NCBI RefSeq assembly: GCF_031624635.1
Contig: NZ_JAMQOQ010000002.1
Coordinates: 124,001 to 188,000 of the forward strand
Source of the DNA: Halogeometricum sp. S3BR5-2
GTDB lineage: Archaea > Halobacteriota > Halobacteria > Halobacteriales > Haloferacaceae
Reading direction: 5' to 3'
Length of the DNA stretch: 64,000 nt
Positions 5,412 through 17,767 of the stretch are shown here, piece by piece. The translations under genes were made by a program, and so were the position numbers. A model generated the notes under the pieces. The model ran no database searches. It saw only the letters and a program-made list of their open reading frames with translations, and was not told where the DNA came from. Numbering within the stretch: the first letter of the stretch is position 1; each line of letters begins with the position of its first letter.

Positions 5412-5461
<50 letters not shown>

Positions 5462-5485
<24 letters not shown>

Positions 5486-5739
5486 TTTCGAGACCCGCGA
5501 GCGACGGCGAGCGGTGTCGTGAATTCAACGGGAGGACTGAACTACGGAACGAGTGAGCGTAGCGAGCGACGTTCCGGTGGTTCAAGTCCCTCCCGGCCCG
5601 TACTTCGTCTCCGAGCGACAGCGAGGAGCGAAGTCGTTACCCGCGGAGGGCTTGAACCGGGGAGCGAAGCGAACGGAGTGAGCGGAGCGACTGGGGTTCA
5701 AGTCCCTCCCGGCCCGTTTCGAGACCCGCGAGCGACGGC
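5462..5739 (+). repeat. three copies of the tRNA-Lys 3' end
   Basis: A 47-bp stretch covering the T arm, acceptor strand and 23 bp beyond the tRNA (5462-5508) recurs identically at 5693-5739. A shorter 22-bp copy of the T loop to discriminator lies at 5579-5600. The spacers contain GAGCG-type inverted repeats. Such copies arise by site-specific integration at tRNA 3' ends or by local duplication; no integrase gene lies here. Confidence 0.9.
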
Positions 5740-5944: not shown

Positions 5945-6781
5945 ATGACGGACGCTCCCAGTCACGGCGACGAGACGGTCGACTCCGACGAGACTCCGGA
6001 CATCCTGCGGACGATGCGGTCCCCGAACGACGGTCGTCTCCTGACCGACGGGGGCGAAGCGGAGAGCGAAGACGAATCGGCCGAGGACGACGCCGAGTCC
6101 GAATCGGACGACGCGACGGAGGAGGAAACGGAAGAGGAGTCGGACGACGAGAACGAGGAAGAAGAGGAAGAAGGAGAAGAAGCGTCCGACTCGGAGGACG
6201 AAGACGACGAAGCGGAGGAAGCCGACGAGGAAGAAGATGAGCAGGAGGAGGAAGAGGAAGAGGAGGAAGAAGAGGAGGAGGAGGAAGAGGAGGAGGACGA
6301 AGGAACGAGCATCCTCTACCTCGACCTCGAAGGGTTGTTCCTCGACCTCCTCGGCCTCGAAGTCGACCTCGAAGAGGTCGAACTCGACGTCTCCGCGGTC
6401 AGCGGTCCCGGGAACCTCCTGGGTAACCTCCTCGACGGCGTCGCTGACCTCCTCGGCTCCGGCGAAGGCGGCATGCTGTCGAACCTTCTGGGCGGGAGCC
6501 TGCTCGAAGGGATGATGGACGACGACATGCTCGGCGGCCTGATGGACGACATGATGGGCGGCGACGAAGAGGGCGAAGAAGGCGAAGAGGGCGAGGAGGG
6601 TGAGGACTCCGAGAGCCGACTCTCCTCGGCGTTCTCCTCGGCGAAGGAGTCGATGGGCGACGCCTTCGAGGACGTCCCCCTGCAGGAGATTCTGACCTCG
6701 GTGCTGAAGGAACTGATCACGCAGATGTTCTCGGACTCCGACGACGACGACGAGGAGTCCGGTTCCGGGTCGGAAGCATGA
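5945..6781 (+). CDS. hyperacidic protein with LLGL-VDL / GNLLGNLL domain
   Basis: A 278-residue protein, first of four tightly packed genes. Residues 1-45 are an ordinary acidic lead. Residues 46-120 are almost only Glu, Asp and Ser, including a run of over 15 Glu. Then comes a hydrophobic block: LYLDLEGLFLDLLGLEVDLE, VELDVSAVSGPGNLLGNLL and VADLLG. This repeating LGL-V-DL ... V-LDV-A-GPGNLLGNLL pattern is one I remember from uncharacterised bacterial proteins, with no known function. A Met/Gly-rich segment (MLSNLLGGSLLEGMMDDDMLGGLMDDMMGG) and another acidic tail follow. The stop overlaps the next start as ATGA. Surface association or assembly is a guess. Confidence 0.7.
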   Translation: MTDAPSHGDETVDSDETPDILRTMRSPNDGRLLTDGGEAESEDESAEDDAESESDDATEEETEEESDDENEEEEEEGEEASDSEDEDDEAEEADEEEDEQEEEEEEEEEEEEEEEEEDEGTSILYLDLEGLFLDLLGLEVDLEEVELDVSAVSGPGNLLGNLLDGVADLLGSGEGGMLSNLLGGSLLEGMMDDDMLGGLMDDMMGGDEEGEEGEEGEEGEDSESRLSSAFSSAKESMGDAFEDVPLQEILTSVLKELITQMFSDSDDDDEESGSGSEA

Positions 6782-7170
6782 GCGGGGAGTCGTCGGGCAT
6801 CCAACGCGCCTTCGACAACGTCGACTTCGCGGAGGTGTTCGCGGACACGCCGCTGGCCGAGGAGTTCGAGGACGAGGACGCGCCCGCCGGCGAGACTATC
6901 GGCGCGTTCCTCGGCCGCCACCTCGGCGCCTGGGTGGGCGGCGTCGTCGGCGCGAGCGTACTCGACGCGGCGCTGTCGGGCGAGTCGTCCGAGTCCGACT
7001 CGGATTCAGAATCGGAGTCGGCGTCAGAGTCCGAATCGGCGGACGACGGGACGGATGCGAACGAGGACGCTGACGCCGACACCGACGACTCGGGCGAAAG
7101 CGAGAACGCGACGGAGAACGGAAGCGAGGACAGCGACGACGCCGGCGACGAGGAGGGCGAGGAGTCGTGA
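6778..7170 (+). CDS. glycine-zipper protein with acidic Ser/Asp tail
   Basis: A 130-residue protein. Residues 1-35 are an amphipathic lead with FDNVDFAEVFADTPLAEEFED. Residues 38-65 hold a glycine-zipper hydrophobic helix (TIGAFLGRHLGAWVGGVVGASVL), with glycines at three- or four-residue spacing as in membrane-inserting or oligomerising helices. The remaining half is a low-complexity Ser/Glu/Asp tail. The start overlaps the preceding stop (ATGA), and its own stop overlaps the next start (GTGA), so translation is very likely coupled. Function unknown. Confidence 0.7.
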   Translation: MSGESSGIQRAFDNVDFAEVFADTPLAEEFEDEDAPAGETIGAFLGRHLGAWVGGVVGASVLDAALSGESSESDSDSESESASESESADDGTDANEDADADTDDSGESENATENGSEDSDDAGDEEGEES

Positions 7171-7982
7171 CGGACGCTTCCGACCTCGCCAACAAGGTGG
7201 CGAGGGACGTGGTCGACGAGGTGGACGTCGGGTCGGCCCTCACCGGCGGCGACGTGACCGAGGACTTGGACGGCGAGTCGCTCGGTCGCTCCATCGGCGA
7301 GACGCTCGGGGAGACGGTCGGCCGACTCCTCGGTCGCAGCGTCGTGAACTGGGTGCTCTCGAAGCTGACGTTCTGGAGCGACGACGACCCCTCGCTGTCG
7401 GCCCGGTTCGGCCGGTCGCTCCTCTTCGCCGTCGGGCGCACGCTCCGAAAGCCCGAGTTCAAAGAGCCCATCGGGGACGCGCTCCGCGGGTTCGTCGACT
7501 CCCTCGAAGCGCGCGGCGAGACGGCGGCGGACGCCGCCGGCGACGCGGCGGAGGGGGCCGAAGAGGCCGCCGAGAGCGCGGGGGACACGGCTGAAGAGGC
7601 CGCGGGCGCCGCCGCGGAGGAAGCCGAGAACGCGGCCGAGAAACTCGCCGCCGGCGACATGGACGAACTCCGCAAGGAGACCTACCGCGAACTGCTGGAG
7701 ATGATGGAGTACTCGAAGATACAGTCCATCGCCAAGCAGTCCGGCGTGAAGGCGAACCTCTCGCGGGACGAGATGATCGACGAGATCGTCGACAACTTCG
7801 ACGCCGACGAAGACGCAGAAGACGCCGAGAACGAGGCCGACGGCGACTCGGATTCGGATTCCGACTCGGACACGGAGGAAGACGAAGCCGACGAAGACGA
7901 GAACGAGGCCGACGAAGACGAGAGCGAGAGCGGCGAAGACTCGACCGAAAGCGACGAGAGCGACGACGACGAATCGTCGTAG
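7167..7982 (+). CDS. glycine-zipper / Ala-rich helix / SAP-like motif protein
   Basis: A 271-residue protein starting at GTG 7167, which overlaps the upstream stop. Four parts can be seen: a glycine-rich hydrophobic region (SLGRSIGETLGETVGRLLGRSVVNWVL, about residues 38-65); a second conserved-looking stretch with RFGRSLLFAVGRTLRKPEFKEPIGDALRGF; an Ala/Glu-rich helix (about 115-155) like phasin or LEA coils; and YRELLEMMEYSKIQSIAKQSGVK...SRDEMIDEIVDNF (about 172-210), whose helix-extended-helix pattern resembles SAP, HeH or Rho-N nucleic-acid binding motifs. The tail is hyperacidic. Shared Gly-zipper design with the preceding gene suggests the two products assemble together (inference). Confidence 0.7.
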   Translation: MTDASDLANKVARDVVDEVDVGSALTGGDVTEDLDGESLGRSIGETLGETVGRLLGRSVVNWVLSKLTFWSDDDPSLSARFGRSLLFAVGRTLRKPEFKEPIGDALRGFVDSLEARGETAADAAGDAAEGAEEAAESAGDTAEEAAGAAAEEAENAAEKLAAGDMDELRKETYRELLEMMEYSKIQSIAKQSGVKANLSRDEMIDEIVDNFDADEDAEDAENEADGDSDSDSDSDTEEDEADEDENEADEDESESGEDSTESDESDDDESS

Positions 7983-7997
7983 CGACGGGGAGATAGC

Positions 7998-9092
7998 ATG
8001 ACCGATTCAGCGTCAAATTCAGAGCTCGCCGGCGCGTTCGAGGCGGCCAACGAGGCGGCCGAACGGGCGTACGTCGGGGGAGAGGGCGACACGCTCACCG
8101 AGGAGGCCGAGGAGGAACTCCGCGACCCGACCGAACGACTCGCGGACGCCCTCTCGGAGGCGTCGCTCTCCGAACTGCTCGAAGTCGCGGGGTTCGAGGA
8201 CGCCCCCGACGACGTCTCGGCGGTCGACCTTCCGGCGGTCATCGCCGACGCCGACCCGAACGCCATCGTCGAACTGCGGACGCTGCTCCAACTCGCGGAC
8301 CTCGGCGAGTCGTGGGCCGACCTCTCCGCCGAGGAACGGGCCGACCGGGTGGACCGGGTCGTCGTCGACGCCGAGACGGCCGACTCCGACGGCGGGTTCG
8401 CGCTCACCGAGTACATCGACCGACTCGACCACATCCTCGGCGACGAGGAGGCGAGCGGAGATGAGGAGTCGTCCGAATCGGGTGCGGACGGCGAGACGGC
8501 CGACGCTGAGGCCGCCGACGAGGCGGCTGACGCGACTGACGACGAAGGCGAAGACGATGACGACGCGAACGCCGAAGACGACAGCGCGGCGGAGGACGCC
8601 GTCGAAGCCGTCGTCGGCGCGGCCGCGGACGCGATGGCTGGCAATGAGGACGACGAGAGCGACGAGGCGTCGGCCGACGACGAGGACGCGGAGCAGGGTG
8701 CCGCCGAAGCCGTCGTCGACGCCGCCGCGAAGGCGGTGAGCGAAGATGGAGAAGACGCCGACGAGGACGTCAGCGACGACGGCGGAGACGACGAACTCCT
8801 CGAATTGGAGGACCACGTCGACCGCCTGCGCACACTCGTCGGCGACGACGAGGAAACCGAAGCGGATGCGGATGCAGATGCAGACGCGGAGGGTCCCGAC
8901 GTCGACGAGGAAGCGGCCGAGGCGGACGCCGCCGAAGACACAGACCAGGACCCGGACGAGGACGAAGACCGCACGACGGACGGCCAGAAGCGGTCGACGT
9001 CCGGGTCCCGCGGCCGTCTCTCGACGGTCCCCTCCTCGCGGTCGGACATGGGGAAGTCGGGGCGCTTCTCCACCGCGCGCGGCAAGCGGTAA
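7998..9092 (+). CDS. hyperacidic protein with basic C-terminal tail
   Basis: A 364-residue protein 15 bp after the previous stop. Residues 1-155 are a helical domain with leucine-rich segments (ERLADALSEASLSELLEVAGFED, IVELRTLLQLADLGESW, GFALTEYIDRLDHILG). Residues 156-325 are low-complexity Asp/Glu/Ala with short helical islands such as EDAVEAVVGAAADAM and AAEAVVDAAAKAV, which look like repeats of each other, and LLELEDHVDRLRTLVG, an echo of the first domain. The last 35 residues switch to strongly basic with two similar motifs, GRLST and GRFST. No signal peptide or membrane helix. Function unknown; the last gene of the operon. Confidence 0.7.
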   Translation: MTDSASNSELAGAFEAANEAAERAYVGGEGDTLTEEAEEELRDPTERLADALSEASLSELLEVAGFEDAPDDVSAVDLPAVIADADPNAIVELRTLLQLADLGESWADLSAEERADRVDRVVVDAETADSDGGFALTEYIDRLDHILGDEEASGDEESSESGADGETADAEAADEAADATDDEGEDDDDANAEDDSAAEDAVEAVVGAAADAMAGNEDDESDEASADDEDAEQGAAEAVVDAAAKAVSEDGEDADEDVSDDGGDDELLELEDHVDRLRTLVGDDEETEADADADADAEGPDVDEEAAEADAAEDTDQDPDEDEDRTTDGQKRSTSGSRGRLSTVPSSRSDMGKSGRFSTARGKR

Positions 9093-14860: not shown

Positions 14861-16309
14861 ATGAGTCGACCGAACGTCGTCGTCACCGTCCTCGACACCG
14901 TTCGCGGCCGCGACACGGTGCCCGCGTCGTCGTCGCCGATGTCGACGCTCGGAGACATCGCGGCGTCGGGGACGGAGTTCACGAGCGCCTTCTCCGCGGC
15001 GCCGTGGACGCTCCCGTCGCACGCCTCGCTGTTCACCGGTACCTACCCCTCCCAGCACGGCGCGCACGGCGACCACACCTACCTCGACGACTCTCTCCGC
15101 ACGCTGCCGGAGGCGTTCCGCGACGACGGTTACGAGACGGTCGGCGTCTCGAACAACACCTGGATCACCGAGGAGTTCGGGTTCCACCGCGGGTTCGACA
15201 CCCTTCGGAAGGGCTGGCAGTACTTCCAGTCGGACACCGACCTCGGGACGGTCACCCGCGCGGAACACCCGATGTCGAAGCTCCGCGCTGCGAGCGACCG
15301 CCTGTTCGACGGCAACCCCTTGGTCAACGCGGCGAACCTCGTCTACGACGAGATGGCCGACGGCGACGGCGCCGACCGCGCCACCTCGTGGGTGGAGTCG
15401 TGGCTCGACGACAGGGACGCGGAGTCGCCGTTCTTCCTCTTCTTGAACTACGTCGACCCGCACGTCGAGTACCGCCCGCCGCGCGAGTACGCCGAGCAGT
15501 ACCTCCCGCCCGACGTGACGTACGACGAGGCGATGACGCTCCGACAGGACCCCCGCGCGTACGACGTGGGCGAGTACCGCCTGAACGACCGCGAGTTCGA
15601 GATACTCCACGCGCTCTACCGCGGCGCCCTCGCCTACGCCGACGACCACCTCGCCCGCGTGCGCGACGCCCTCGTCTCCGCCGGCGAGTGGGAGGACACG
15701 ATACTCGTCGTCCTCAGCGACCACGGCGAGAACGTCGGCGACCACGGCTTCTTCGGCCACCAGTACAACCTGTACGACTCGCTCCTGCACGTCCCGATGG
15801 TGTTCCACGGCGGGCCGTTTCACGAGGGCCGGCGCGACGGACTCGTCCAGACGCTCGACGCCGCGCCGACGCTCCTCGACGCGGCGGGCGTGGAGGCTCC
15901 CGAGTTCCGACGGCAGATGCACGCCCGGTCACTCCACCCGGACGCGGACTCGGACCCGCGCGACGCCGTCTTCGCGGAGTACGTCGCCCCGCAACCGTCG
16001 CCCGACAGACTCGCCGCGCGGTTCGACGAGATACCGGACCGCGTCCGGACCTTCGACCGGTCGCTCCGGTCGGTCCGGACGGACGACGAGAAGTACGTGC
16101 AGGCCTCCGACGGGAGCGAGTGGTTCTACCGCGTCGGCCGCGACCCCGACGAGGCGTGGAACCGCGCGTCGAGCAACGAGGAGCGGACGGAACTGCTCTC
16201 GGACCGCCTCGACCAGTGGCTCGACTCGTTCGACCGCGAGGAGAAGAGCGGCGAGGTGTCGATGAGCGACTCGACGCGCGACCGACTCTCGGACCTCGGC
16301 TACCTGTAA
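14861..16309 (+). CDS. sulfatase-fold protein without formylglycine site
   Basis: A 482-residue alkaline-phosphatase-superfamily enzyme. PNVVVTVLDTVR (Asp12 metal ligand), a second metal site in LSDHGENVGDHG and LLHVPMVFHG define the fold. At the position where true sulfatases carry Cys in C-x-P-S-R, this protein has Thr50 in TLPSH, so it cannot form formylglycine. Thr is the nucleophile in phosphatases, phosphodiesterases and phosphoglycerol transferases of this superfamily, so a phospho-substrate is more likely than a sulfate ester (inference). No signal peptide or membrane segment. It converges with another sulfatase gene 12 bp away. Confidence 0.83.
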   Translation: MSRPNVVVTVLDTVRGRDTVPASSSPMSTLGDIAASGTEFTSAFSAAPWTLPSHASLFTGTYPSQHGAHGDHTYLDDSLRTLPEAFRDDGYETVGVSNNTWITEEFGFHRGFDTLRKGWQYFQSDTDLGTVTRAEHPMSKLRAASDRLFDGNPLVNAANLVYDEMADGDGADRATSWVESWLDDRDAESPFFLFLNYVDPHVEYRPPREYAEQYLPPDVTYDEAMTLRQDPRAYDVGEYRLNDREFEILHALYRGALAYADDHLARVRDALVSAGEWEDTILVVLSDHGENVGDHGFFGHQYNLYDSLLHVPMVFHGGPFHEGRRDGLVQTLDAAPTLLDAAGVEAPEFRRQMHARSLHPDADSDPRDAVFAEYVAPQPSPDRLAARFDEIPDRVRTFDRSLRSVRTDDEKYVQASDGSEWFYRVGRDPDEAWNRASSNEERTELLSDRLDQWLDSFDREEKSGEVSMSDSTRDRLSDLGYL

Positions 16310-16321
16310 TTCTCTAAGAGG

Positions 16322-17767
16322 CTACCGGAACGTCTTCGGAACCCACCTGCAAAGCGGGTCCGCCGTCTCCTCCATCCAGCCGACCAACTCCTCCTGTAGC
16401 CTCCGCTTTTCGTCCTCGTAGTGGGGGTGCTCCGCGAGATTCCGAAGTTCGTGCGGGTCCTCGCGCAGGTCGTACAGTTCGTTCGCGCCCGGACCGTTGT
16501 AGACGAACTTGTAGCGCTCGGTTCGAAGCATCCGCTGGGAGTAGAGACCGAACTCGTCGCCGTGGTACTGCGCGTAGACGGAGTCGGGCCAGTCGTCCGG
16601 GTCCTCGCCCGAGAGCAGGGGCAGGAGGCTCCGCGCGTGGAGTCTGTCGGGCACCTCGGCGTCGCCCCAGTCGAGGAACGTCGGCATGAGGTCGTGCAGG
16701 CGGACGAACGCGTCCGACTCCCCGACCGTCTCCCGTGTCGGGTCGCGGACGACCAGCGGGATTCGGTACGTCTGCTCGTACATCAGCGGTCCCTTGTTGA
16801 ACTGGCGGTGCGACCCGGTGAAGTCGCCGTGGTCGGCGGCGTGGACGACCACCGTCTCCTCGTCGAGGCCGTGCGTTTCGAGGGCGTCGAGTATCCGGCC
16901 GACCTGGTCGTCGATGAACGTCACGAAGCCGTAGTACTTCGCCACGAGTTCGGCCCACGTCTCCCAGTCGAAGTCCTCGACGCCGCGGTATCGGGTGTAC
17001 TCCTCGTGCACCCGCGGCTTCCCCTCGAACGTCTCGGCGTAGGAGGGCCACGGCTCGATTTCCTCTGGGTCGTACATCGAGGCGTACGGCTCGGGGACGA
17101 CGTAGGGGTGGTGCGGGCCGAGGAAGTCCGTCCGGTGGAAGAAGGGGGTATCGGCGTCGTCGCCCTCACCTCCTTCCGCCCGGCGCTCGATGGCCTCTAT
17201 CGTCAACTCCGCGAGGAAGTACGTCCGCGTCGCCTCCGGCGGCAGCGACGAGGTGCCCGAGACGAGCATCCCGCCCGCGCCGTCGTCGGCGTACACGGCG
17301 TCTTCCACGGTTTCCTCTTCCACGTCGAGCGACTCCTTGTAGCGCTTGTAGCGCGTGTCCAGCGCCTCGTCGTGATGGTCGTCGCTCCCGCCGAAGTACT
17401 CGAAGCCGAACGACTCGGGACCGCGGGTCTGCCCGACGTGCCACTTGCCCGCGTACGTGTTCTCGTAGCCCGCCTCGGCGAGTCGCTCGCCGAACGTCGG
17501 GAGGTCCTCCGGTAGGTCGGTCCGAATCGCGTCCGCCTCGTGGCTGTTGTTCAGCATGCCGTGGGCGTGCGGGTACAGACCGGTCAGGAGCGACGCCCGC
17601 GCGCTGGTACAGATGCTCACCGGCGTGTACGCCCGGTCGAACCACGTCCCCTCCTCGCGGAGTCTGTCGAGGTTCGGCGTCTCGACGGGGAGGCCGTCCG
17701 GGGCGAGGAGGTCCGCGCGCTCTTGGTCGGTGAGGAGGAATAACACGTTTGGACGTGTGTCGGTCAT
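16322..17767 (-). CDS. sulfatase (formylglycine type)
   Basis: A 481-residue sulfatase. PNVLFLLTDQERAD gives the first metal site, and Cys53 in CTSARASLLTG occupies the formylglycine position; the usual proline is replaced by serine and the arginine is present (Arg57). Later elements GKWHVGQ, HRTDFLGPHHPY, VVVHAADHGDFTGSHRQF and the C-terminal ERYKFVYNGPGANELYDLREDP are classic for arylsulfatase or choline-sulfatase relatives. It would hydrolyse a sulfate ester once matured. There is no formylglycine-generating enzyme gene nearby. Substrate is not deducible; no signal peptide. Confidence 0.88.
   Translation of the reverse strand: MTDTRPNVLFLLTDQERADLLAPDGLPVETPNLDRLREEGTWFDRAYTPVSICTSARASLLTGLYPHAHGMLNNSHEADAIRTDLPEDLPTFGERLAEAGYENTYAGKWHVGQTRGPESFGFEYFGGSDDHHDEALDTRYKRYKESLDVEEETVEDAVYADDGAGGMLVSGTSSLPPEATRTYFLAELTIEAIERRAEGGEGDDADTPFFHRTDFLGPHHPYVVPEPYASMYDPEEIEPWPSYAETFEGKPRVHEEYTRYRGVEDFDWETWAELVAKYYGFVTFIDDQVGRILDALETHGLDEETVVVHAADHGDFTGSHRQFNKGPLMYEQTYRIPLVVRDPTRETVGESDAFVRLHDLMPTFLDWGDAEVPDRLHARSLLPLLSGEDPDDWPDSVYAQYHGDEFGLYSQRMLRTERYKFVYNGPGANELYDLREDPHELRNLAEHPHYEDEKRRLQEELVGWMEETADPLCRWVPKTFR

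Follow-up and report, generated by a model that had tools for sequence, protein, structure and literature searches.

Four adjoining genes of Halogeometricum sp. S3BR5-2, here named g1 to g4, probably form an accessory gas vesicle module of a haloarchaeal type that lacks GvpC (we put the probability of this reading at about 0.83). The genes span positions 5945 to 9092 on the + strand of the 64,000-nucleotide stretch of DNA that was analyzed (the window). Gas vesicles are protein-walled gas floats of the cell that are studied as buoyancy organelles and as tools for ultrasound contrast and antigen display. For haloarchaea, 14 gvp genes are usually listed as the gas vesicle set. We base our reading on the co-occurrence of the four genes with GvpA family genes, their linkage to and insertion into gvp clusters, the homology of g4 with GvpI, and the exclusion of GvpC, and the genomic link to gas vesicles is a strong one. 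The genes and their main features are as follows.

5945..6781, + strand: g1, 278 amino acids; acidic N-terminal tail, conserved core of about 68 residues, leucine-rich C-terminal helix
6308..6550, + strand: g1 core, LDLxGLFLDLLGLEVDLxEVxLDVxAVxGxGNLLGNLLxxVAGLL, with 19 invariant columns over 15 sequences
6778..7170, + strand: g2, 130 amino acids; glycine-zipper protein with an acidic tail
6895..6969, + strand: glycine zipper of g2, assigned from sequence, common to zipper proteins inside gvp clusters
7167..7982, + strand: g3, GTG start, 271 amino acids; glycine zipper, Ala-rich coil, SAP/Rho-N-like helix-extension-helix domain, acidic tail
7272..7346, + strand: glycine zipper of g3, with invariant G44, G48, G52, R53, and G56
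7668..7799, + strand: predicted SAP/Rho-N-like C-terminal domain of g3 (LRKETYRELLEMMEYSKIQSIAKQSGVKANLSRDEMIDEIV); AlphaFold predicted local distance difference test (pLDDT) score of about 90, weak Foldseek matches
7998..9092, + strand: g4, 364 amino acids; GvpI paralog with an acidic middle and leucine-rich helices
9000..9089, + strand: basic C-terminal GvpI-type module of g4, (R/H)xSTVPSSRxDMxxxxRxST, of a kind also found in the annotated GvpI of Halobacterium salinarum pNRC100

The distribution of g1 closely follows that of gas vesicle genes. In a sample of 391 haloarchaeal genomes (completeness, ≥90%), the g1 core, searched with a profile from alignment A3, was present in 140 genomes, and the GvpA/GvpJ/GvpM shell family (PF00741) was present in 168. 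Both were found in 139 genomes, g1 only in 1, gvp only in 29, and neither in 222 (Fisher P = 2.7e-75, a value that overstates the evidence because the genomes are related and not independent). The sole genome with g1 only (G155) had a marginal g1 match (E value, 7.5e-4). In each of seven genera in which only some genomes carry gvp genes, every genome with g1 also had gvp. A common-descent explanation, in which the module is a set of passenger genes that travel with the GvpC-less gvp lineage and have no gas vesicle role, gains from the nonindependence of the genomes and from the distance of >10 kb between the operon and the cluster in Halogeometricum and other genera. It is nonetheless the least likely explanation that we considered, given that, in several genera, the module is restricted to genomes with gvp genes, that it persists both where it is unlinked (as in the host genome) and, in several families, next to or within clusters, and that it includes a GvpI paralog.

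The same survey separated the module from GvpC. Repeated matches to PF05465 (GvpC) were found in 11 genomes, none of which carried g1. Among the gvp-bearing genomes, GvpC was present in 0 of 139 with g1 versus 11 of 29 without it (P = 6.4e-10), and the g1 module and GvpC are, as judged from these profile matches, mutually exclusive. Single weak PF05465 matches in three genomes (G075, G081, and G096; 22.8 to 23.5 bits, with a cutoff of 22.4) were not counted as GvpC. One of them, G096, is a g1 carrier, and counting its borderline match would change the exclusion to 1 of 139. GvpN was present in 85 of the 139 g1-bearing genomes and is therefore not excluded in general. No PF05465 repeats were found in g1 to g4, which have no sequence relation to GvpC, and none of the five Halogeometricum genomes examined yielded a GvpC. 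Halogeometricum borinquense forms gas vesicles (PMC4187190). The gvpACNO genes are tabulated for this species, Natrialba, and others in a later report (PMC9501494), in conflict with an earlier one (PMC4390858). GvpC coats and stiffens the gas vesicle wall (PMC9501494); haloarchaeal GvpC, present only in gvp-bearing genomes without the module, is a possible functional counterpart of it.

Physical linkage provided further evidence. The g1 gene lay within 5 kb of a GvpA family gene in at least 14 genomes (G318, G300, G295, G271, G065, G039, G125, G062, G070, G092, G078, G025, G048, and G084). In a first sample of loci, 3 of 13 operon loci were linked to a gvp cluster, which is the less biased figure, as some of the later loci (n = 20) were chosen after linkage had been seen. 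Within 20-kb neighborhoods, the operon was located beside a gas vesicle cluster in G025 and G047 and inside one in G039. At four loci (L037, L081, L082, and L083), g1 genes were found inside the gvp cluster, between gvpG/H and gvpI, and at 10 others (L029, L030, L085 to L088, L091, and L093 to L095), g1 adjoined the cluster. On the Haladaptatus halobius plasmid CP085341, the operon lies about 12 kb from annotated gvpA/gvpO. Plasmid CP085342 of the same organism carries a second operon copy (L045:14076-15985), in which g4 is annotated as 79 amino acids only and which may be decaying.

When annotated Gvp probes were placed on the loci, two cluster layouts emerged. The classic layout, as annotated on pNRC100, comprises gvpA-C-N-O with gvpD-E-F-G-H-I-J-K-L-M and is without g1. 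In the second layout, gvpO-gvpA faces gvpF-G-(H)-I-J-K-L-M, GvpI is N-terminally extended, and g1 genes occur beside or inside the cluster. By tblastn, GvpC, GvpN, and GvpD were present in four classic clusters and absent from all 16 extended-GvpI clusters tested, which comprised 14 with g1 in the examined stretch, the host cluster, and a Haladaptatus cluster. The host cluster (G000:C1:718246-723102) is of the second type, with gvpA, F, G, J, K, L, M, and O, the eight genes essential in Halobacterium, plus an extended GvpI; no GvpC, GvpN, GvpD, or GvpH was recognized in it. An intermediate layout was seen in G107 (L101:6753-7745), where a gvp cluster has an extended GvpI and GvpN without GvpC and g1; such a layout could reveal in which order genes were gained and lost.

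Identification of g4 as a paralog of the N-terminally extended haloarchaeal GvpI (Nmag_0338/Htur_2370) was supported by profile comparison. The g4 family matched extended GvpI across 226 columns that take in the STVP-type C-terminal module (HHalign probability, 99.4; E value, 4.1e-21), whereas reversed, column-shuffled, and unrelated acidic control alignments gave E values of 0.02 to 0.95 and were negative. The extended GvpI profile in turn matched classic GvpI (E value, 1.3e-17, or 1.6e-17 with the annotated NRC-1 GvpI included). The STVP-type motif pattern matched 17 of 20 g4 sequences, and the repeated C-terminal module is common to g4 and GvpI. When the whole host genome was searched with a GvpI profile built without any sequence from that genome, the gvpI of the cluster ranked first (1.7e-70) and g4 second (0.004). 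The place of gvpI, between gvpH (or gvpG) and gvpJ, is held by the host cluster's own gvpI, with which g4 coexists, and for this reason we call g4 a paralog and not GvpI itself. Further differences are that g4 belongs to a separate operon apart from the gvp cluster, has a long acidic middle, and lacks the RLYGxR end. The GvpI of Halobacterium is a short, basic protein (pK 10.75; PMC7688916); its basic N-terminal half is not found in g4, which is acidic, as extended GvpI also is.

The g1 protein represents, on the basis of profile searches, a new protein family that matches no described one. Scans against curated Pfam and NCBIfam models assigned none of the four proteins to a family at its cutoff, and weak matches (presenilin, ssl2009, GvpQ, DUF7440, and others), all far under the cutoff, were rejected. 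The Pfam scan found no PF00741 domain in g1, and a GvpA-like fold for this protein was rejected by profile comparison. Neither the g1 nor the g4 profile matched solved structures (Protein Data Bank) by sequence, and the g1 profile had no match outside the order in 148 genomes of the phylum. The GNLLGNLL-type core, which the initial annotation had likened to an uncharacterized bacterial domain, had no match in Pfam, NCBIfam, the Protein Data Bank, or plasmids; the plasmid search (tblastn) masks low-complexity queries and was uninformative, because it missed even the g1-carrying Haladaptatus plasmids. No description of g1 to g4 was found in the literature searched, which excluded most subscription literature.

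Profile comparison also showed that g2 is homologous to the N terminus of g3 (E value, 3.5e-9), making them one glycine-zipper family that matches no described family in Pfam or NCBIfam. Single-gene zipper versions adjoining gvp clusters match both g2 (E value, 1.8e-22) and g3 (3.7e-17) and have a g3-like C-terminal domain, and the zipper proteins inside gvp clusters (L037 and L081 to L083) share the zipper and have a different, short C terminus. A "hypothetical" gene of the g2/g3 zipper family is located between a second gvpO and gvpF of the Haladaptatus gvp cluster (L046:3514-4131). An unnamed extra gene in the GvpC-less gvp cluster of Natrialba magadii (Nmag_0337/Htur_2371; PMC3403918) is possibly of the glycine-zipper type, a likeness drawn from its description and not from its sequence. 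In a search of 60 relatives for g3, 17 genomes were positive, a few of them only because the short C-terminal domain was matched next to genes for ribosomal proteins. Such distant matches (L034 and L035) reflect helix-extension-helix similarity only and were not counted.

That C-terminal domain raises the alternative of a regulatory module, in which g3 would bind nucleic acid and the operon would control gvp expression in place of GvpD/GvpE. The predicted fold of its 44 residues resembles that of the SAP and Rho N-terminal helix-extension-helix domains, and Foldseek gave weak matches with DEK and Rho (41 to 43 columns; root mean square deviation, about 1; best E value, 1.9; probability, 0.85). 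The g1-linked clusters are without GvpD, and most other haloarchaeal clusters are without gvpDE (PMC4390858). However, g3 falls under all curated thresholds, no SAP or Rho-N family model matched it, and nucleic acid binding is putative. The different C terminus of the in-cluster zipper versions, the structural appearance of g1 and the glycine zippers, the assembly-side nature of a GvpI paralog such as g4, and the extreme acidity of all four proteins, which is poor for DNA binding, make this alternative unlikely.

The organization and composition of the operon agree with much of what the initial annotation of this DNA, made from the letters alone, had described. The genes run head to tail, with an ATGA at 6778 common to g1 and g2, a GTGA at 7167 common to g2 and g3, and a spacing of 15 bp between g3 and g4. 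The proposal that they form one operon kept together in relatives held: the order g1-g2-g3-g4 was also found head to tail in all four of the other Halogeometricum genomes examined and in Haladaptatus and is still recognizable in several other families. Close matches to the host genome are Halogeometricum pallidum and Halogeometricum limi. The conserved gene order indicates that g1 to g4 are real conserved genes and not chance open reading frames in acidic repeats. Their unusual acidity was borne out as well (Asp plus Glu of 41.7%, 32.3%, 31.0%, and 34.3% for g1 to g4, respectively): among the 59 open reading frames called in the window (mean, 18.7%; standard deviation, 6.0), the four highest values are those of g1 to g4, with g1 taken from an upstream start (38%) in this comparison. 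The LLGL...GNLLGNLL block of g1, the zippers of g2 and g3, the Ala-rich coil of g3, and the leucine-rich helices of g4 are all present, and the judgment that none of the proteins is an enzyme stands. A promoter and terminator scan of the operon, with models of bacterial signals applied to an archaeon, gave nothing useful.

The interpretation offered in that annotation, a self-assembling shell or coat, survives in part. The proteins probably work on a protein shell; a free-standing structure of a new kind does not stand, since the set tracks gas vesicle genes and g4 matches the known gas vesicle component GvpI, a kind of match that the annotation had itself named as refuting. Amphipathic cores with acidic tails and potentially membrane-inserting glycine zippers would suit a self-assembling body independent of gas vesicles, such as a granule or vesicle coat or a phase-separating or membrane-remodeling complex. 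With gas vesicle genes in 139 of 140 carriers and with linkage to and insertion in gvp clusters, such a body is very unlikely, and no support was found for polyhydroxyalkanoate granules, phase separation, or membrane remodeling. A polyhydroxyalkanoate granule or phasin role was rejected, as there was no family match in Pfam or NCBIfam.

Several observations weigh against an accessory gas vesicle module. In the host genome, the operon is unlinked to the gvp cluster, which is on another contig. Fifteen gvp-bearing genomes are without both g1 and GvpN, so the module is not universal. The g1 core has no homology to GvpA/GvpJ/GvpM by profile comparison (E values, 0.25 to 0.64), g1 resembles no described Gvp, and its predicted structure is of low confidence (pLDDT, 60) and supports no fold claim; the g3 model as a whole has a pLDDT of 59. 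Classic short GvpI matches g4 directly at 29 columns with an E value of 4e-5, and because this match is weak, the link of g4 to GvpI rests on the extended form. Several species whose clusters are without gvpC and gvpDE are recorded as Vac-, with expression conditions unknown (PMC4390858), and some GvpC-less clusters may be silent.

The exact role and division of labor of g1 to g4 are matters that we infer from known Gvp functions; those of GvpI and GvpC make it most likely that the operon acts within the assembly complex or at the wall of GvpC-less vesicles. Halobacterium GvpI is not essential; it binds GvpH, GvpF, and GvpL and promotes GvpJ, GvpK, and GvpM oligomers, and its loss leads to extremely long vesicles (PMC7688916). 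Like it, g4 may join the GvpF/GvpL/GvpH assembly hub via its basic STVP-type C-terminal module and may limit elongation or tune vesicle size. The g1 protein, together with g2 and g3, all amphipathic with acidic, salt-adapted tails, would act with g4 on the growing GvpA wall, and g1 to g3 could be assembly chaperones or a wall-supporting layer that replaces GvpC. In the host, the operon would act in trans on the gvp cluster of the other contig.

Two other features of the window were recorded. Upstream of the operon, at 5412 to 5717, the 23-base 3' end of tRNA-Lys (TTT), GGTTCAAGTCCCTCCCGGCCCGT, is located at 5464, with two further exact copies at 5579 and 5695, about 115 bp apart (expected by chance, 0); the copies look like remnants of integration sites. 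Downstream, at 14861 to 17767, are two neighboring sulfatase-like genes in opposite orientation.

A further, tentative idea is that haloarchaeal gas vesicles have a layer made of g1 to g4 that, independently of GvpC, supports the wall or sets vesicle size; it would be a second way of stabilizing the wall. Such a layer, built from the new g1 family, glycine-zipper proteins, and a GvpI paralog, might be used by most gvp-bearing haloarchaea, in which case the studied Halobacterium/Haloferax GvpC system would be the minority type. Of the 168 haloarchaeal genomes with gvp genes in our sample, 139 possess one gene family more, g1, and an accepted GvpC is found in none of these 139. Should the module prove functional, it would lengthen the parts list of the organelle, offer a testable reason for the persistence of GvpC-less clusters, and provide a complement to try where such clusters alone fail to give vesicles.

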